DNA of 64,000 nucleotides, from the NCBI RefSeq assembly GCF_000741535.1, contig NZ_JGYQ01000016.1:124001-188000 (forward strand). Direction: 5' to 3'. A model generated the notes under the pieces. That model searched no databases. It was not told the origin of the DNA and was given only the letters and a program-made list of their open reading frames with translations. Shown here in pieces: positions 2,305 through 63,518 of this stretch. Numbering within the stretch: the first letter of the stretch is position 1; each line of letters starts with the position of its first letter. The DNA comes from Bifidobacterium boum. GTDB taxonomy: Bacteria; Actinomycetota; Actinomycetes; Actinomycetales; Bifidobacteriaceae. The position numbers were made by a program, and so were the translations under genes.

Positions 2305-4079
2305 CGGGACTCCTTTCCATCGTGTTCATCAGCGTGGGATACGTCTTGGCTTTCCGGTGCCGCCATTGCACTCTCCTCGGCTTTGCGGAACCGGATGGAC
2401 GCGCCCGGCGGCAGTTGCGCCGCTAACGCGAGCGCATCAAGTGTCAGTACGGCGATGATCGGATAGCCGCCGGTGACCGGCTGATCGCGCAGAAACAGCA
2501 CGGGCTGCCCGTTTCCGGGCACTTCGAGCGAGCCGGGGACCATGCCTTCGCTGGGCAGTTCCCGCGTATCTTCGCGTTCCAGGGGCTGCGGGCCGTTGAG
2601 CCTCAGCCCGGTACGGTTGGATTGTGCGGTGACCTGCCATGTGGTGTCGAACAGCGTGCCGATGGCGGCCGGCGTGAACCAGTCGTCATGCGGGCCGAGC
2701 ATGACATCGAGCCAGATTGGATGATTGGCGCTGCCGATCGCCTCCGGACCGGCATGGTGCATGGTGCTGGTTGGCAGGTGCCCGTTCCATTTGCACGGCC
2801 GCCCTACGCTTCGTAACGAATCCGGGGTTCCGGCGATGAGCGTGTCGCCTGCGGCCAAGGGGGCCGGTCCGATGCCGGACATAGTGTCCCGCGAAGCGCT
2901 GCCGAGTGTCATCGGGGCTATGAATCCGCCTCGAATGGCGAGATAATCACGTAATCCCGCGTGCGGCATGCCTATGGTCAGGGTTTCGCCGTCGTGGAGG
3001 ATGATGGCTTCCTGCCGGTGCAGGCTTTGCCGGATGGTCGTGTGGCCCGGATCGGCACCTGACGTGGCATTTCCGGTGATACACAAATCGACTGGGGCTC
3101 CCGTAACGGCGACCACCACATTCCCTATCGCGGTGAACGCGGCATCGCCTGCGGTCAGTTCGATGGCGAGCGCGTCCGGCGGATTACCGACAAGCATATT
3201 GGCCAGGCGGTAGGCGGGCATATCGCACGCCCCCGATCCGGCGACGCCCATGGCCGAGGCGCGCCTGCCCTGGTCTTCGAACAGCGCGAGCAGGCCGGGG
3301 CGGATGACACGCAGGCCGTGGTCACATGTCATTGGCCCCAAACCGCTACCGGAGTTCCCGGCATTCGCCCGGATATCGCGGTCCGACAGCATCCGGCGTT
3401 GGCGCGCAATATCAGTCATGACCGTCTGATCGCGCTCGGCGTGGAACATCACACGGTCGCCGGGCATGATGGCCGCGGGCGGGTCGGCGTGTGCATCCCA
3501 CATCGGCATGGCCGTGTGCCCGATCAGCTGCCATCCGCCGGAGCTTTCGCGCGGGTAGACGCCGCTGAACCGCCCGGCAAGACCGACCGCGCCGGAAGGC
3601 ACACTCAACCGTGGCGTTGCGCGGCGCGGCACGTCGAATATCGGGTCGCCATCCACCAGATATGTGAATCCGGGGGCGAATCCGCCGAATGCGGCCGTCC
3701 ACGCGGTGCCGGTATGCCGGGCGACCACCTCGTCGGCGCCGATACCAAGCAGCTGCGCCACGGCCTCAAGATCCTCGCCGTCGTAGATGACGGGCACGGT
3801 CACCGTCCGATGCTCTTGAGCCTGATCGGGGGTATCAGGCAGTGCCATGATCGCTTCGGCAAGCGAAGCTGCACGGATCCTGCGCGGATTGAACCGCACG
3901 AGCACGGTCTGCGCGGCTGGAACGAGTTCGGTAATCGCAGCGAACACCTTGGACGGTACGCCTAACGATGCGGCGTCCGCCACGGCTTCGCCGATGGCGT
4001 GATACAGGCCGAGCGCATAGTGCAAATCCCCGGTCTCCACAAGCAACGCGTCCTGGCCTGCCGGCAATATCCGTCTCAT
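2301..4079 (-). CDS. pxpBC: 5-oxoprolinase subunits B and C, fused (PxpB-PxpC)
   Basis: 592 residues. Residues about 1-230 match PxpB/KipI, with the core [11 protein letters not shown], the arginine-rich [20 protein letters not shown] and the [10 protein letters not shown] segment. Residues about 255-570 match PxpC/KipA ([17 protein letters not shown] then [23 protein letters not shown]). In many bacteria these are two genes, so this is a fusion in the usual order. With PxpA it should form the ATP-dependent 5-oxoprolinase that opens 5-oxoproline to glutamate in the cytoplasm. It overlaps pxpA upstream and the biotin carboxylase gene downstream by ATGA, which places all three in one operon. 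The older annotation of these domains as allophanate hydrolase or Kip proteins is the alternative, but the pxpA neighbour favours 5-oxoprolinase. Confidence 0.92.
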
Positions 4080-23658: not shown

Positions 23659-24554
23659 TTGTGAGTCACCACTCACAACGAATCCACTCGGTCAAACTAT
23701 CCAGACCGTGCATGCTCCGACTCATCTTCCAATTGTGAGTCACCACTCACAATCAAAGAACTTTCATGCACCAACCGCACCTGCAACAGGCAATTGCTCA
23801 TGCTGATTGTGAGCAGCCACTCACAACGACGCATCAACGTCTGCAGATTCGCATCGGAACACCGCACTCTCCCGTTGGCTGTGAGTCACCATTCACAACG
23901 AAGAGACATCAGCTCACGAACCACCCCCGCAACGGCTCACTGCCCCGTTGGTTGTGAGCGACCGTCCACAACCAGCTCGAACGCAGAGCGACCGGCACAT
24001 GCTTCCACACAAATAGTTCGTTGATTGTGAGTCACCATTCACAACGAAGAACTCAAGTCGCGAAAATCATGCCGACCTCGCCCAAACCACCAACCAATTG
24101 TGAGTCGTCACTCACAATCAGCAGTCACAACCACCCCAACCATACCTGCAATGCTTACTCCCACTCTTGATTGTGAGTCGCCACTCACAACCAGTGGTTG
24201 AACGGCTGAAACTCCGAGCGCCGCCACACGAGTCGTCTGCCGATTGTGAGCACCGACTCACAATCAATGCAGGTGACCACACTGTATCCGCCCAGCCGCA
24301 TTGCCGACTCACCGATTGTGAGCGACCACTCACAACCAACGGACGTTGACTTACCAGCCGCTCCCGCAATGACTAACCCTCACGTTGATTGTGAGTCACC
24401 ACTCACAACGAAACAAGAGAATCCGCGAATCGGCCTCGAATCGTAAACACTTGACCGCTGGTTGTGAGTGACGACTCACAATCAACTACAGTGCGGGGTA
24501 GTCGACACACATTGTCGCACGAACGACTCATTGATTGTGAGCGGCCACTCACAA
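23659..24554. repeat. Phased dyad array A1 (family A, 13 copies, 73 bp period)
   Basis: Thirteen 20-bp dyads, TTGTGAG-N6-CTCACAA, start at 23659, 23733, 23807, 23879, 23952, 24025, 24098, 24171, 24244, 24316, 24389, 24462 and 24535. The intervals are 74, 74, 72, 73, 73, 73, 73, 73, 72, 73, 73 and 73, a mean of exactly 73.0. Left arms are nearly invariant; only 23879 has CTGTGAG. Right arms vary slightly (TTCACAA at 23879 and 24025, TCCACAA at 23952). The six central bases vary (mostly TCACCA, TCGCCA, CGGCCA). The flanks are often GAT on the left and C(G/C)A on the right. The array fills the gap between the broken membrane gene and the 2-hydroxyacid dehydrogenase, apart from about 200 bases on the left that contain a short direct repeat (ACATGCGTTAA twice near 23575-23598). 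Confidence 0.92.
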
Positions 24555-53725: not shown

Positions 53726-54082
53726 ATCCATCCTCGTTCCTCGCGCGTAAAGGGTTTTGCGACGCGTGTTCCTTATCGTTTCCCTCACTATCGCATCGCT
53801 GCGGACGCGACTGCAAGTGCGCGCCCCTCATGCTGCCTGTCGAACCAATCATTGTACACGAATCCACGCTCGACCGTCAGCGCTTCGCTTGCCCGGCGTC
53901 CCACCTGCCCGCGCCTCACCTGCACCGTTCTACAGCGTTCCTCGCTACCGACGTGGTTCGCACCCCACATGCCCGATCCGTCTGTCTGATCCACCTGCCC
54001 GATCCACCTGCCCAGCATCAATCCATCGTCGACTCTATGGGCATAACCGTCTCAGGCTCCGCCCCCACCTGCCCAGCATCGA
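53726..54082. other. Gap upstream of smpB with a 13-bp tandem repeat
   Basis: 357 bases between smpB and array A2. GATCCACCTGCCC is repeated in tandem at 53988-54013. No gene or other signal was recognised. Confidence 0.4.
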
Positions 54083-55201
54083 TTGTGAGTCACCACTCAC
54101 AACCAGCCGCCCGCCACCCCATCTTCAGCCGCTTTCAACCAGTCGAACCAGTTGATTGTGAGTCACCACTCACAACCAGCCGCACGTCAAGCTACACGGA
54201 CCATCCCCGCACTATTCCCTCAGCTTGATTGCGAGCTGCCGCTGACAGCCAAATAATAATTCCCCCCATCTTCCAGTCCTTCCAGCGCCACGAACGAGTT
54301 GATTGTGAGTCACCGCTCACAACCGGCGCCATCCAGATGCCGACTCCACACCAATCTCTGCCTCTGTATCCCTCAATTGCGGACGACCACTCACAACCAG
54401 CGGCTGTCCACTTGACCGCTGGCCCGCCAATAGCCACCAAACCGGTTGATTGTGAACCGCCACTCACAATCAATAGTCAGACACACCTCCTATTAGCCGC
54501 ATAACCGCCCCAACCACATTGGCTGTGCGCCACCACTCACAATCAGCTCGACGGCGATGACGCGCACATAATAACCTCAACAGTGGTATCCCCTGGTTGT
54601 GAATATCCCCCACAACCAGCGGCACTGGAACAAAGGAAAGCGGCAAGAAGCCACTCGCACCGTCCTGCCTGTGAGCCATACCTCACAATCAGTTGCGATT
54701 TGACGGAATTACCGACAACGAGACAGCCAGACCCTCTTGGTTGTGAACCGCGGTCCACAAGCGATAACGTAAGGTGGTCAATCACACCATCAAATACGTA
54801 TCCGCCCACATGATAGTAAGCCCCCACTCACAATCAACGCTCAAACGACGGTACCCGAGAGTAGCGATCTCGCTGGCACTGCTTGATGATTGTGAACAGC
54901 CACTCACAATCATGACAAAGGTAGGATTGCATACCTCAGGCATGGCACCGTCAAGCGATAGATTGCGCACCGTTACTCGCAACCAACCGCCGATTGCACC
55001 AACCATCAATCCCCGACCATCACAGCACACATCGATTGTGAGTCGTCACTCACAACCAGCTGCTTGACGGCTCGCCTCTCCAGCCCCTCAGCCAACCGAA
55101 CAAGTCGGTTGAGAGCCGTCACTCACAACCAAGCAATCATCACTCCTCCAGGCAAGCCCCGCAACCGATCAAGAAGGCTGATTGTGACCCGCCGCTCACA
55201 A
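54083..55201. repeat. Phased dyad array A2 (family A, 16 copies, 73 bp period)
   Basis: Sixteen dyads start at 54083, 54156, 54229, 54303, 54377, 54450, 54523, 54597, 54669, 54741, 54814, 54890, 54963, 55036, 55109 and 55182. Intervals are 72-74 except one of 76; the mean is 73.3. Several copies are intact (54083, 54156, 55036), and others carry one mutated arm (TAGTAAG at 54814, CTGTGCG at 54523, CTGACAG right arm at 54229). Copy 54963 has paired changes in both arms (TTGCG and CGCAA). The right flank is usually CCAGC or TCA. The array lies between smpB and the CHAP hydrolase gene. Confidence 0.9.
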
Positions 55202-55497: not shown

Positions 55498-56958
55498 TCA
55501 GTAGTGCACATACTGGAAGCTACTCGCGTTGTACACGACCTCCGAATACGGGATGTACGGGCACTTGGTGCCACCCTCGGAAATCAGCACGGACCCGTCA
55601 GAATTCACACGCTCGACAATAGCAACATGACCATAGGCCGCGTTTGCATACCAGTTGGTCACGCGCTGTCCGGGCGCGAACACCATGGCCGCGCCAACGT
55701 GGGGCGTGTTATTGACCAAGTATCCCAACGCGCGTGCCTTGCTCGCCCACTGAGCACCATTACCAAGGTATGATCCGACCGGCAATCCCAGCTGTTGACG
55801 GCGAATATACGCCCACCACGTGCACTGACGTGCCGGATACGCATTGCCGACATTACCGGTGCTATGCCCGTAGCAGAACGATGACCCCGCCGGGCAATTA
55901 CCCGGCACGCTGTAGTTCATGCCCGAAACGCCGGAATTAGAGCTGGAGGAAGACCCCGAATTGCTTGGACGGCTCGGCTGGCTCGGAGTGCTCGGCCGGC
56001 TCGGCCTGGACGTATTCGAATTGTGGGAACCAGACGAACCTGAATTGTTCGCTCCGGCGTTCGATGGCCGTCCACTTGCCGCTTGGGAACCGCCGCTCGA
56101 CGGCAACGCCTGCTGATTCGCATAATTGCTTGACCACGAGTTGATTTCCGATTCCATCGCGACAATTTCAGCGGCTTCTTTCGCTGACTGCGAAGTCAAC
56201 TGGCTCTTCTGGCTTTCCAAGGATTCACGTGCGGCATTCCCCTTGGCCAGCAGGTCGTTGAGCTCGCTCTGCTTGTCTTGAGCGGTTTCCACCGCCCGTT
56301 GTGCAGCGGCGGCCTGCGCATCGGCCTTCTGCTTGAGTGCGGTAATCTCATCCTCAATTGCGGCGAGACGCTGCTCACGATTCTTTGCCGTGCTCAGCTG
56401 CGTCGCAGCATCGTTTGCCGCATTGCTTTCCGTGCGGCTGACCGCCGCGTCCGCCTGCATCTTGTTGACAAAATCCTCAGTCGTACTTGAATTCGTCACC
56501 ACGTTCATGACTTCGGACGCGGTCGTGCCGTGGAAACTGTCTCGCGCCATCTGTGCGACAGCGGCTTTCGCATCGTCATAGTCGGCGCCTGTTTGCTTGA
56601 TTTGCTCTTCAAGGTCAGCTTTGTCCTGCTTGGCGGCATCAAGCCGTTCCGACGCCGCTTGAGCTTGCGCTTGCGCCTGTTCGGCGGAATTCTGAGCATC
56701 CTGCAACGCCTGCTGGGCTGCGGGAATCTGATTCTGGTTGAGATCATTGAGTTCGAGAATCTGATCAGCCAGTTGCGAACTGACGCCCGCAAGCTTGGCT
56801 TTCAGGTCACTCTGGCTTTGCAGCTTTGCCTTGTACTGCTGCATGGTGACAGCCTGCGCCGGTTGCACAGCGGCAAGATTCGCAGTACCCGCGGCGATAA
56901 GAGTGAGCGATGCGACCAGGACACCGGCAATGGCGTTGATCTTCTTCGTGCGCTTCAT
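55498..56958 (-). CDS. Secreted CHAP-domain peptidoglycan hydrolase with coiled coil
   Basis: 486 residues from the ATG at 56958 (AAAGG upstream). A signal peptide is clear (INAIAGVLVASLTLIAAGTANLAAVQPAQA). Residues about 35-290 form a long coiled coil rich in Ala, Gln, Glu and Lys. A Ser/Gly/Asn/Pro linker of about 60 residues follows. The CHAP domain is at the C-terminus, with the catalytic cysteine in NAYPARQCTWWAY and the histidine in NAAYGHVAIVERV. This is the PcsB-like layout, in which the coiled coil contacts FtsEX and the complex activates cell-wall cleavage at division. Its position directly downstream of ftsX supports that role. Confidence 0.92.
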   Translation of the reverse strand: MKRTKKINAIAGVLVASLTLIAAGTANLAAVQPAQAVTMQQYKAKLQSQSDLKAKLAGVSSQLADQILELNDLNQNQIPAAQQALQDAQNSAEQAQAQAQAASERLDAAKQDKADLEEQIKQTGADYDDAKAAVAQMARDSFHGTTASEVMNVVTNSSTTEDFVNKMQADAAVSRTESNAANDAATQLSTAKNREQRLAAIEDEITALKQKADAQAAAAQRAVETAQDKQSELNDLLAKGNAARESLESQKSQLTSQSAKEAAEIVAMESEINSWSSNYANQQALPSSGGSQAASGRPSNAGANNSGSSGSHNSNTSRPSRPSTPSQPSRPSNSGSSSSSNSGVSGMNYSVPGNCPAGSSFCYGHSTGNVGNAYPARQCTWWAYIRRQQLGLPVGSYLGNGAQWASKARALGYLVNNTPHVGAAMVFAPGQRVTNWYANAAYGHVAIVERVNSDGSVLISEGGTKCPYIPYSEVVYNASSFQYVHY

Positions 56959-57068
56959 ATCACAGCCTTTCATATGGTTTACCGACATTGTACCTGCTGA
57001 TGCTCAATGTTCAATGAGAATCCCCTGCCGAGCATCAGCGGCGGGGGTACGAGGCAGCCAGTCGCGCA

Positions 57069-59347: not shown

Positions 59348-60487
59348 TCAGTTGTTGTCTTGTGCGGCTTCCTCAGCGGCCTGCTTGCGCTGGTCGTGAC
59401 GCCAGCGGATACCGGCCTCAATGAAGCCATCAATATCGCCGTCGAACACCGCCTGGGTCTGCGAGGTCTCATACCCCGTGCGCAAATCCTTGACCATCTG
59501 GTACGGATGCAACACGTACGAACGCATCTGATCACCCCAGCTGGCCTTGATATCGCCGGCAAGCTCCTTCTTCTTCTTGGCTTCTTCCTCATGGCGCAAC
59601 ACCAGCAGTCGGGACTGCAACACCGCCATGGCGGCCGCACGATTCTGGATCTGGCTGCGTTCATCCTGCATGGAAACCACCAAACCCGTAGGCAAGTGGG
59701 TGATGCGGACCGCGGAATACGTGGTATTCACGCCCTGACCGCCCGGGCCGGACGCTTGGAAGGTGTCGACACGAATATCGGAATCCGGGATATCGATATG
59801 ATCAGTGGATTCCACAAGCGGAATCACCTCAACCGCGGCGAACGACGTCTGGCGACGACCCTGATTATCGAACGGCGAGATACGCACCAGACGATGCGTG
59901 CCACCCTCAACCGACAGGCGGCCATACGCATATGGGGCATCCACTTGGAATGTCGCGGATTTGATACCAGCCTCTTCAGCGTACGACGTATCCATCATCT
60001 TGGTTTTGAAATCATGCCGCTCAGCCCAACGCAGATACATACGCAGCAGCATCTGGGCGAAATCGGCGGCATCAACGCCGCCGGCGCCGGAACGAATCGT
60101 GACGACGGCAGAACGCGCATCATACTCGCCGTCCATGAGGGTCTGAACCTCCATGTCGACCAGATCCTGGTCAAGCTGCTTCAAATTGTTGACAGCCTCA
60201 TCCATGGACTCTTTGTCTTCTTCTTCAGAGCCGAGTTCATACAATGTTTCAACATCGTCAATACGACGCTGCGCGTCCTTCAGACGCTTCAACTGAGACT
60301 GCGCGGCCGAAAGCTTGCTCGTGACGCGCTGGGCGTTTTCCTGATCGTCCCACAGGCCCGGCGCGCTGGCCTCCGCCTCGAGATCCTTAATCGACGCAGC
60401 CAAAGCGTCCATATCGACGGCCTTGGCAATCATGTCGAATTTCGCCTTGGTCTCGTTCAAATCCTGAGTAAAGTCATAGTCTGCCAC
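59348..60487 (-). CDS. prfB: Peptide chain release factor 2
   Basis: 379 residues with a GTG start at 60487, supported by AAGGTGG six bases upstream. The stop-codon recognition motif SPF is in [18 protein letters not shown], which marks RF2 rather than RF1, and the catalytic GGQ is in [21 protein letters not shown]. It recognises UGA and UAA. The gene is a single open frame; no programmed frameshift is needed, unlike Escherichia coli prfB. It is the first gene of the prfB-ftsE-ftsX-CHAP set. Confidence 0.96.
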
Positions 60488-60705: not shown

Positions 60706-61609
60706 TTGTGAGTGGCGACTCGCTAGCACTCAGCCACATGCTCGACCATCCGCCAGATCGATGCGAGACAATGACGATTCTTCCCGTCGGTTGTGAGTGC
60801 TTATTCACTATCATCTTGTCGCAAACCCCATCAGCACTATTGCAATGGCCTCTCTTCCCCCATCGGTTGTGAGTGCTGGCGAGCGCAATGCGCTGGGACC
60901 GGTCGCGGGCCATCTCTCTTCCCCCATCGGTTGTGAATGCCGATTCACAACCAGCCGATGTCCATCCCAGATTGACCCATGTTGCGGCCCTCTCCCTCGC
61001 TGATTGTGAGCGGCGGCTCAAAGCCAGCTGACACTGTACCCGATCGGCGCTGTTGCAGCGCCGCTTTTCTCAGCGACTGTGCATAGCCGCTCACAACCAG
61101 CCGGCATTCCAACCGAGTCAGCATCGTTTCGGCATCGCTTTTCCCAATGGTTGTGAACGGCCACTCACAATCAGCCGGCAGGTGCCGCGACATATCGACA
61201 ATTGTCATGCGCTCATCTCGTGGACCGGAAGCAGCGGCTCACAACCAGCCGATAGGTGCATCGACACGCGAATTCATCCCGCTGCCCCCCTACTCGTTGT
61301 GAGTGGCCACTCACAACCAACTCAGCAACTCTGCAATCGGCGCTCATTGGCAATGTCGATTCCACTGACAGCAAGCAGCGACTACAACCAACAACAGCGA
61401 TACACAATCGGCATCATCACAGCCGACAACTCTCCTCTCGGTTGTGAGCGGCGACTCACAACCAGCTGATAGACGCCACGCAATGTGCGCTTATTGCGTC
61501 ATCATCCTTGTGCTAACTGCCAGCAACCACTCACAACAAGTAATAAATCCCCTTGTTCGACCCCGCCATCGCGGCATGGATTTTGATAACTGCCAGCAAC
61601 CACTCGCAA
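60706..61609. repeat. Phased dyad array A3 (family A, 13 copies, decayed)
   Basis: Thirteen copies start at 60706, 60791, 60867, 60931, 61004, 61077, 61151, 61225, 61297, 61368, 61442, 61517 and 61590. From 60931 on, intervals are 71-75; the first three (85, 76, 64) are irregular. Intact copies include 61297 and 61442. Others keep one arm only: 61225 and 61517 keep the right arm, 60867 keeps the left. The last two share CTGCCAGCAACCACTC, suggesting local duplication or conversion. The right flank is often CCAGC. The array lies between prfB and the DUF559-type gene. Confidence 0.85.
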
Positions 61610-61727: not shown

Positions 61728-62753
61728 TCATCCAGCAGACAGAAGCATCGACCCTTCTACCGAAGCGATTCCTTCGTGTTGCGCGGCGGCTCTCGCTTGT
61801 CGCGCCAGTCGCGACGCCAGGCGACGAAGCGTCATCGGCTGATGCACTTGGACATCCTTTCCGATCCGCTTGGACAAGCGTGCAGCAACACTGCGAACAA
61901 ACGACATTCTGGAAGCGGCATCCTTTACATCTTGCCAAGTAGCGTTGATACACGACCATTCGGCATCCTCAAGCAACTTACGACGCTGCACATCATATTC
62001 CCAAGTACCAGCATGATGTTTACCATCATATTCAACAGCGATTTTCGCTTGAGGATATGCAAGATCAAGGAAAAAACGCCGTTTGGCCGTACCGCTTGCA
62101 GTTGCGGCATCGGGAACCTCGACGGCAGGATTGACTTGAGGTGCGGGAAGTCCATGCGACATCAATATCAAACGCAATTCGCTTTCGCGGAACGAATCCG
62201 TGTTCTCACGCATGAGTGTCATCGCACGGCGGCAATCCGCGGTTCCGCGCGGCATCCGACGACGCTCAGCTCGAATAGCTTCATGCGTCTCGTGGCACAA
62301 ATCACGCAACTCACGAAGTGCCATCCATCGTTGAGCCGCATCCCTCCGCATCAGAGCGTCACCAAGCAGCACCAGAGTCCGCAGTCCCGACTTCCGCGCA
62401 TACATCAGCCATGTGATGTCAGGCGCTACGCACGTGATGTTGCCCAGCTGCATCCGCCGCATCGGATAACTCCAATACACGCATCGAACTCCCGCAATAC
62501 GGCGGCGCGTTTTCTGTGAACTTGCGACGACGACCAGCTCCTCGTGATCGAGCTCACTCGGCACATCGATGCACAGCAGTTTCAGCGCAGTACTCAACGC
62601 GAAAACCAATGGTGACGCGACCCGCGCCTGCAATTCACGGCAGCGGACCAGCGTCTCGGCTTGGATGCGCAGCAGTCTGACCGGGGTTGTCTCAACCCGC
62701 CGGCCATTCGCCTGTTCTAAGAGTCCGGATTTGTTGCGGTATATGGTATTCAT
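61728..62753 (-). CDS. Protein with a DUF559-type (PD-(D/E)XK-like) nuclease domain
   Basis: 341 residues if started at ATG 62753; an in-frame ATG 12 codons earlier and a longer reading to 62867 also exist, and no strong ribosome binding site decides. The first 200 residues are basic and helical, including LRELRDLCHETHEAIRAERRR. The C-terminal domain from about residue 205 reads SFRESELRLILMSHGLP, FFLDLAYPQAKIAVEYDGKHHA and RRKLLEDAEWSCINATWQDV; this is the E...D...ExDGxxH pattern of the DUF559/very-short-patch-repair-like nuclease fold. Such proteins are frequent in actinobacteria, and their role is not settled. It is flanked by arrays A3 and A4 and stands alone. Confidence 0.75.
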   Translation of the reverse strand: MNTIYRNKSGLLEQANGRRVETTPVRLLRIQAETLVRCRELQARVASPLVFALSTALKLLCIDVPSELDHEELVVVASSQKTRRRIAGVRCVYWSYPMRRMQLGNITCVAPDITWLMYARKSGLRTLVLLGDALMRRDAAQRWMALRELRDLCHETHEAIRAERRRMPRGTADCRRAMTLMRENTDSFRESELRLILMSHGLPAPQVNPAVEVPDAATASGTAKRRFFLDLAYPQAKIAVEYDGKHHAGTWEYDVQRRKLLEDAEWSCINATWQDVKDAASRMSFVRSVAARLSKRIGKDVQVHQPMTLRRLASRLARQARAAAQHEGIASVEGSMLLSAG

Positions 62754-62901
62754 GGGGGCGAGCCTATCGGGCTTGTCATGGTGAGACATAGCAGAAAGAG
62801 AGAATGTGGTCAGAAGTTGCAGATTGATGTGACGACGGCGCACCAACGTCTGACTATCGCCTAGCAAATAGGATTATCGGCGTCAAGCTCCGTGCCATTG
62901 A

Positions 62902-63518
62902 TTGCGAGCGGCCACTCACATCACGGTATAGTCACCTCCTCCGCAGCCTGGCTGACGATTCAATCCACAGGCTGATTGTGAGTCATCGCTCACAACGGGG
63001 TCGCGGAATCTCAAGGTGCTCGCAAACCCTCGTGTCCTGCCGAAACGGTTGACACGGTTGCGAGTCGCAGCTCACAACCAGCGACATCATACGAAGCAAG
63101 CAATCAGGTTCATATCCAATACCTTCCATCACAGTGCGTATCCGCTCACAACCAATACCAGGATGAAGCCATCGATGGCAGATTTCGCACTCAATACCCT
63201 GACACTGTGAGTCGTTGCTCACAACCAGAATGGCGATTCAACGGCAAACGGCATGACTTACGTTCGATACCCCCAATGCTGTGAGTCGCCACTCACAATC
63301 AGGACCATGATTGAGAAGGAAGCGGCACAGTTTCACCCAATATCTCCGCCATTGTGAGCCACCACTCACAACCAGCCAGCAATCAAGCCGCAGACGGATT
63401 CGCAAACGCTTGACGCCGCATTGCTTGATGGTCATCACTCACAACCAGCAACGCAATATGTCCCCCAAACGGCCTGACGCGCGCGGATAGCCCCGACGCG
63501 GTGAGTCGCCACTCACAA
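62902..63518. repeat. Phased dyad array A4 (family A, 9 copies, 73-74 bp period)
   Basis: Nine copies start at 62902, 62976, 63058, 63132, 63205, 63279, 63352, 63425 and 63499. Intervals are 73-74 apart from one of 82. Right arms (CTCACAA) are nearly invariant; left arms vary (TTGCGAG, CAGTGCG, CTGTGAG, TTGATGG, CGGTGAG). The right flank is mostly CCAG or TCAG. The array lies between the DUF559-type gene and dapD. Confidence 0.88.

Follow-up and report, generated by a model that had tools for sequence, protein, structure and literature searches.

REPtrons, as outlined in PMC8266576, combine many copies of REP palindromes with a cognate nuclease gene (TnpA_REP/RAYT), with which the palindromes co-evolve. 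Two other described groups of proteins are relevant here: the EDxHD homing endonucleases, including I-Bth0305I, whose catalytic fold is the basis of our comparison (PMC3943268), and the AbiEi-type antitoxins, whose own promoters carry two or four inverted repeats to which they bind (PMC7319586). The 64,000-nucleotide stretch of the Bifidobacterium boum genome analyzed here (“the window”; contig NZ_JGYQ01000016.1, positions 124,001 to 188,000 of the forward strand) contains four arrays of regularly spaced palindromic dyads, and a gene for an AbiEi-like/EDxHD-type nuclease protein (DUF559) lies between two of them. The arrays and the gene point to an unrecognized repeat-and-nuclease element in bifidobacteria. 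We propose that this element may be a repeat-nuclease system that works like the REP/RAYT REPtrons but shares neither their enzyme nor their DNA structure. The whole proposal, in which the arrays are binding and target sites of the flanked protein, dyads cooperate in phase, the nuclease drives spread, and protein and dyad change together, is regarded as moderately probable.

As in the REPtrons described in that outline, a nuclease-type gene is flanked by its own palindromic repeats, copies are dispersed in intergenic gaps, and gene and repeat appear to co-evolve. Unlike the REPtrons, the flanked genes scanned are AbiEi-like and EDxHD/Vsr-like rather than HuH (Y1-type), the dyads are double-stranded in look, with independent half-sites and no conserved folded single strand, and successive dyads in an array lie close to a whole number of helical turns apart. 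No such arrays were found in the open-licence literature, in which papers on DUF559 were judged by title or the start of the abstract, and an earlier sequence-only reading of the window likewise knew no named element of this design. If the proposal is true, the element would be a second, unrelated answer to the REP/RAYT problem, namely how short palindromes come to spread through the intergenic DNA of bacteria and remain there.

Array 1 (23659..24554, + strand) consists of 13 dyads of TTGTGAGYSRYSRCTCACAA spaced by 72-74 bp. The spacings, recounted in order as 74, 74, 72, 73, 73, 73, 73, 73, 72, 73, 73, and 73 bp, give the same mean of 73.0 bp as the sequence-only reading, and the arms are exact in 10 of the 13 dyads, with one mismatch in one dyad and two mismatches in two. 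Array 2 (54083..55201, + strand) has approximately 15 dyads at 72-76 bp and one skipped unit (146 bp), array 3 (60706..61609, + strand) has approximately 12 dyads, part of them degenerate, and array 4 (62902..63518, + strand) has approximately nine dyads at 73-82 bp. Arrays 2-4 are less regular, with spacings of 64, 76, 82, and 85 bp and skipped units of 145-146 bp. All four arrays had been recognized before, although approximately 49 copies, degenerate ones included, were counted here rather than 51. With up to two mismatches, TTGTGAGN6CTCACAA matches 38 times in the window, where 100 dinucleotide shuffles gave 0.13 matches on average, and 18 of the 20 exact-arm places of the 2.17-Mb genome fall inside it. 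The phenomenon is larger than first noted. The earlier reading had overlooked the nuclease gene that arrays 3 and 4 enclose, a second, dispersed class of dyads, and the differing dyads at related genes. Class I dyads (TGRTTGTGAGYSRYSRCTCACAAYCA) occur on the source contig (C16) only at 147-187 kb (approximately 484 of 495 kb read). Class II dyads (GTGTGAGYSAATCCTCACAM) occur genome-wide, either alone or in rows with at most 11 members, again approximately 73 bp apart.

In array 1, the arms are kept while the core and spacer drift, as had been claimed (1.89, 1.16, and 0.33 bits per column, respectively; 0.20 expected from composition). Across ten collinear segments of orthologous arrays, in which only the aligned parts were counted, 27 of 755 arm positions have changed compared to 177 of 2225 spacer positions (p = 1.8e-5); the same segments have 34 of 323 changes in the core and 126 of 2540 in sequence outside the arrays. 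The arms diverge half as fast as the spacers between species and are under purifying selection, in line with the earlier suggestion of selection on dyad and spacing. Divergence is not uniform along the 73-bp unit, and dyads and spacing are kept together in relatives, so that neither outcome named beforehand as a refutation was observed. Ordinary tandem duplication without function is extremely improbable given the slower change of the arms, the spacing that is kept while spacers drift, and the linkage to a gene described below, although arrays of B. apri (L041 and L088) resemble recent one- and two-unit duplications and the array 1 spacers are slightly alike (0.30 vs. 0.27 shuffled).

The dyad is a symmetric protein-type site of about 26 bp. 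Covariation was assessed in a pool of 186 class I and 239 class II sites, which included loci L080, L085, and L037 and in which class I sites were oriented to give A/C-rich flanks. Within arms and core, one half-site varies independently of the other: class I positions 6/11 are TA in 68 sites, CA in 56, TG in 30, and CG in 19, with 88 Watson-Crick pairs observed and 89.7 expected, and positions 2/15 have 151 observed and 151.5 expected. Where symmetric positions of the arms and core are variable, Watson-Crick pairs are near or under expectation (at most 155 vs. 150.3), and a small excess is found only at the class I flank positions -1/18 (141 vs. 126.6) and -2/19 (76 vs. 66.8). Independent half-sites fit a protein dimer on double-stranded DNA better than paired RNA or a cruciform, and there is no conserved RNA hairpin because the half-sites vary independently. 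The sequence-only reading had offered cooperative protein binding or a row of RNA hairpins, of which the former is favored and the latter is not supported. Each dyad could form a stem-loop, and the + strand spacers have more A and C than G and T in arrays 1, 2, and 4 (array 3 is raised in C only), which would suit repeats that are transcribed, act as terminators, or make up a guide RNA array. However, in addition to the covariation result, whole-turn spacing has no meaning for RNA, and when the window and five loci were scanned with Rfam at the gathering threshold, the only match was a tRNA in one locus; such hairpin rows are very improbable. The shared orientation that had been read from the right flank is mostly dyad symmetry, with the left TGR mirroring the right YCA, and the real polarity of the arrays is slight.

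CRISPR and TIGR arrays resemble these arrays in their regular repeat spacing but differ in that the half-sites here lack covariation and the dyads look like protein sites. No Cas family was found among the flanked genes and neighbors scanned, nor a Tas protein with a Nop domain in the flanked genes scanned (in both cases the scanned genes only, not the whole genome), and the earlier exclusion of CRISPR is upheld.

Helical phasing, first suggested by the 73-bp spacing, extends to other families of arrays at about 52, 62, 84, 105, and 117 bp. Over the families, spacings cluster at 52.4, 61, 62, 64, about 72-74, 82.5-84.3, 91, 105, and 116.6 bp, with a best common period of 10.45 bp, and mostly correspond to 5, 6, 7, 8, 10, or 11 turns. 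Outside the 7-turn class, phasing has p = 0.002 (11 clusters) or p = 0.003 (10 clusters, 64 left out), where gaps above 130 bp are excluded and families may be non-independent; p is 0.03 when the five-mismatch copy at 60867 is uncounted, in a test that does include a 140-bp gap. Cooperation of in-phase dyads is reasonably probable. Natural spacings near these numbers of turns make the role of helical phasing in DNA recognition directly testable.

The gene between arrays 3 and 4 (61728..62753, - strand) has a frame that opens at 62867 (TTG), and its likelier start is the ATG at 62753. The protein consists of an AbiEi-antitoxin-like domain fused to an EDxHD/Vsr-type nuclease domain resembling I-Bth0305I. 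Residues 31-180 have the fold of AbiEi of the type IV toxin-antitoxin system AbiE, while residues 1-17 of the model have pLDDT < 50. The match spans AbiEi residues 56-195 only, a part that does not take in the winged helix; differences from AbiEi are the added nuclease domain and the dozens of sites. No AbiEii nucleotidyltransferase toxin gene was found among the neighbors scanned, which cover part of the gene sides. Residues E188, D228, H245, and D252, identified by order and conservation without residue-by-residue superposition on I-Bth0305I, are invariant in 13 of 13 proteins and follow the order in the family name EDxHD. The likeness to I-Bth0305I lies in the EDxHD/Vsr-like catalytic fold, with cleavage and homing here putative, whereas the gene differs in standing alone between arrays and in being joined to an AbiEi-like domain. 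All five flanked genes scanned match DUF559 and no transposase family, and five proteins had no match among the PADLOC anti-phage models (best E 0.015).

Relatives with at least 42% identity are found in the source genome (G000), B. thermophilum JCM 1207 (G101), to which the source is close, B. thermophilum DSM 20210 (G100), B. apri DSM 100238 (G008), Pseudoscardovia radai (G117; L085 matches it at 3001 of 3001 bases), and three genomes of the same genus (G132, G143, and G153). At 38% identity or more, with broken copies aside, 13 of 15 relatives sit between phased arrays, and the arrays represent eight dyad types. These 13 are ten genes examined by motif scans, all with arrays on both sides, and three class I genes (G101, G100, and G008) placed by coordinates. 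The flanking dyad is class I for the window gene, class II for L175, YGCGCATG..CATACGCA for L176, CGAGGGTGCA..TGCNCCYTSG for L177, L179, and L182, TATGTGYSAG..CTGGCACATA for L178, CGGCGGTG..CACCGCCG for L180, CGTGGCGAG..TCGCCATG for L186, and GGTGTGAG..CTCGCACC for L187. In L020, L175, and L176, a separate gene-call scan detected no gene with arrays on either side, although motif scans show arrays on both sides; the L175 gene has no right neighbor before the contig end, and the L020 and L176 misses are probably due to gene-calling errors. Dyad similarity tracks protein identity (r = 0.68, p = 0.00045 for 10 loci; r = 0.45, p = 0.013 for eight loci). Based on this co-variation and the linkage of gene and array, the dyads are probably recognized by the 61728-62753 protein, and the family offers natural protein-site pairs of diverging specificity. 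The two genomes named B. thermophilum are strongly different: the nuclease protein is 96% identical to that of the source in JCM 1207 and 66% in DSM 20210, and the genome set treats them as different species. DSM 20210 and JCM 1207 are both type-strain numbers, so one label may be wrong.

The unit appears as array-gene-array at five sites because the neighbors of the flanked genes, mostly housekeeping genes, are mutually unrelated. They are dapD-like and prfB genes in G000, G132, and G153; guaB-like and ammonium transporter (amt-like) genes in G132 and G143, with guaB-like also in G117; ROK in G100 and G008; dnaG-like and purE-like in G117; and cysS-like and ABC-F-like in G143, where the ABC-F-like ATPase also hits the general AAA_21 model. 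One scanned neighbor (L182:8270-9265) has no Pfam match. In the window, array 3 has prfB (peptide chain release factor; 59348..60487, - strand), which marks the syntenic site in other genomes, on one side and the nuclease gene on the other; array 4 is on the far side of that gene, and the gene beyond it, seen in the adjoining stretch L027, is dapD-like. The orthologous genes of G000, G132, and G153 at the dapD-prfB site carry three different dyads. The corresponding gap of G117 and G143 has CGAGGG-type dyads, and the gene is absent (part of the G143 gap is masked). Elsewhere, 22 of 23 prfB loci scanned have no comparable array, while G052 has a 72-bp direct repeat, and in 12 of 30 loci dapD was found no more than 1.5 kb away from prfB. 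The ROK-linked genes of G100 and G008 are syntenic yet have different dyads. The gap upstream of prfB (L120 961-1400, L121, and L119), with differing dyads per genome and the gene present or absent, appears as a recurrent site.

A spaced-pair scan of genome contigs gave 66 stretches, 63 of them from B. thermophilum DSM 20210, JCM 1207, and B. apri, and one each from B. minimum (G048, LMG 11592), P. radai, and Paractinoplanes. Exact TTGTGAG dyads are present in four of 112 genomes of the genus. The looser dyad TGTGAGN6CTCACA occurs 143 times in B. apri, 102 in DSM 20210, 73 in the source, and 60 in JCM 1207, and at all in 18 of 181 family genomes. In DSM 20210, the 30 class I places listed, of 33, are at 202-246 kb of one contig. 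CGAGGG dyads are spread over several contigs (81 in G117, 35 in G132, and 19 in G143; 0 in G153, which is 82% complete). An orthologue of array 2 is present in JCM 1207 and B. apri. The lengths of array gaps vary from species to species by about whole units (1117 vs. 899 bp and 615 vs. 469 bp), and class II gaps are filled in one species and empty in another: four of six are longer in B. apri than in the source (616/130, 699/48, 819/219, and 335/37 bp).

In the proposed mechanism, each dyad would bind one dimer, with one subunit per half-site. With dyads about whole turns apart, neighboring dimers would lie on the same face of the helix and could join directly or via a small loop. The EDxHD-type domain may nick or cut inside the array, and recombination repair could lead to the gain or loss of whole units and to the copying of arrays into new intergenic gaps. 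Repair may also bring the gene and its flanking arrays into a gap, and protein and dyad would change in step, giving each lineage its own pair. Nuclease-driven spread, suggested by the fold, the invariant catalytic-type residues, the whole-unit length changes, and the longer B. apri class II gaps, has slightly less than an even chance. More tentatively, the element may represent a new class of selfish element, with a homing-endonuclease-type enzyme that targets a phased dyad array of its own building, acts only at two in-phase dyads, amplifies the array by repair, enters gaps with or without its own arrays, and repeatedly switches dyad specificity at one site. Equally tentative is a selfish reading of the dapD-prfB site in stages, from no comparable array (22 of 23 other prfB loci scanned), to an array alone (G117 and G143), to array-gene-array with three dyads (G000, G132, and G153).

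Several observations weigh against the repeat-nuclease proposal. The phasing has p = 0.12 after equal values are pooled across families, and the 91-bp spacing is off the 10.45-bp period. Two of the six class II arrays compared are common to the species at equal length, 10 of 11 class I arrays compared occupy the gaps of source arrays 1-4, and one class I array of DSM 20210 maps to a source gap without a detected array. Two copies at approximately 40% identity (L183 and L188) and the broken copies L181, L184, and L185 have no array, and copies at 35% identity or less in 11 loci (L199, L205-L207, L211, L213-L215, and L217-L219) gave one isolated hit and no array. More distant DUF559 genes also appear to be without arrays: 22 loci (L153-L174) had zero detections with a detector that is weak on degenerate arrays, and 28 loci (L223-L250, five repeated genes) at a looser setting had isolated hits in six and no array. 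These negatives from distant genes are only suggestive because the detector misses degenerate arrays; its stricter setting missed arrays 3 and 4 around the source gene itself (L145). Finally, three of four genomes (G000, G101, and G008) retain class II arrays although no gene flanked by class II dyads was found in them, so either the pairing of dyad and gene is loose or the gene-less arrays are relics. This persistence, and the few class II dyads around cytosine-permease/PucR genes in B. minimum, would also suit another protein reading the dyads, with the nuclease gene merely traveling with or inserting into the arrays. That explanation is improbable, since the genes have mostly different dyads around them, in correlation with protein identity, and CGAGGG dyads are absent from the one of four Pseudoscardovia genomes in which no such gene was found.

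The arrays could instead be regulatory or architectural sites that serve the host, where the protein coats the arrays, represses itself, and perhaps organizes or insulates intergenic DNA, with the nuclease secondary. The AbiEi-like domain is consistent with such a role, as AbiEi of S. agalactiae binds inverted repeats with positive cooperativity and represses its own promoter (PMC7319586). Related species mostly share the gaps in which class I arrays lie, purifying selection acts on the arms of these arrays, and none of 96 dyad clusters is inside a called gene (own gene caller, overlapping loci counted apart). However, a host-serving role is rather unlikely considering that the nuclease residues are invariant, arrays of the class II and CGAGGG types are dispersed genome-wide, class II clusters are commonest where the neighboring genes converge (22 of the 52 clusters whose two neighbors were called), and four of the six class II gaps compared differ between species.

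A link to the replication origin or terminus, for which mapping had been suggested, gained no support and was dropped: dnaA is on another contig, GC skew has one sign over nearly all of C16, and prfB is at approximately a quarter of the length in several single-contig genomes, on the unverified assumption that these begin at dnaA. Viral contigs had no match to the exact spaced pair, the only form searched. Three identical TGTGAGTACTCACTCACA sites of Paractinoplanes lichenicola (L080 663-853), which are TGTGAG dyads 102 and 71 bp apart, bear a distant likeness and were set aside as unrelated or chance. Array 1 is bordered by a gene without a Pfam match on one side and a 2-hydroxyacid dehydrogenase gene on the other, and array 2 occupies the gap that separates a minus-strand gene, which ends at 53731-53788, from a CHAP-domain gene (55498-56988).

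In B. minimum (L037 11-7078), a few class II dyads (TGTGAGGATTGGCTCACA) are on both sides of a 6-7 kb cytosine permease/amidohydrolase/PucR region that has no related nuclease gene, and dyads at distances similar to L037 occur at two places in genome G186 (C1 98290-104631 and 2210414-2217481). These dyads are possibly operator sites or part of a transferred cassette. In B. apri (L176 14350-15227), a class II array adjoins an array of the third dyad (YGCGCATG), approximately 5 kb from the nuclease gene. Two more genes are located between CGAGGG arrays in P. radai (L182 8270-10265), one without a Pfam match and one with a TM2 domain. Another locus of P. radai (L085 1220-1400) has a 73-bp pair of TGTGAGCGAAC dyads beside a second run, approximately 72 bp apart by eye, whose sites resemble those around the L186 gene.
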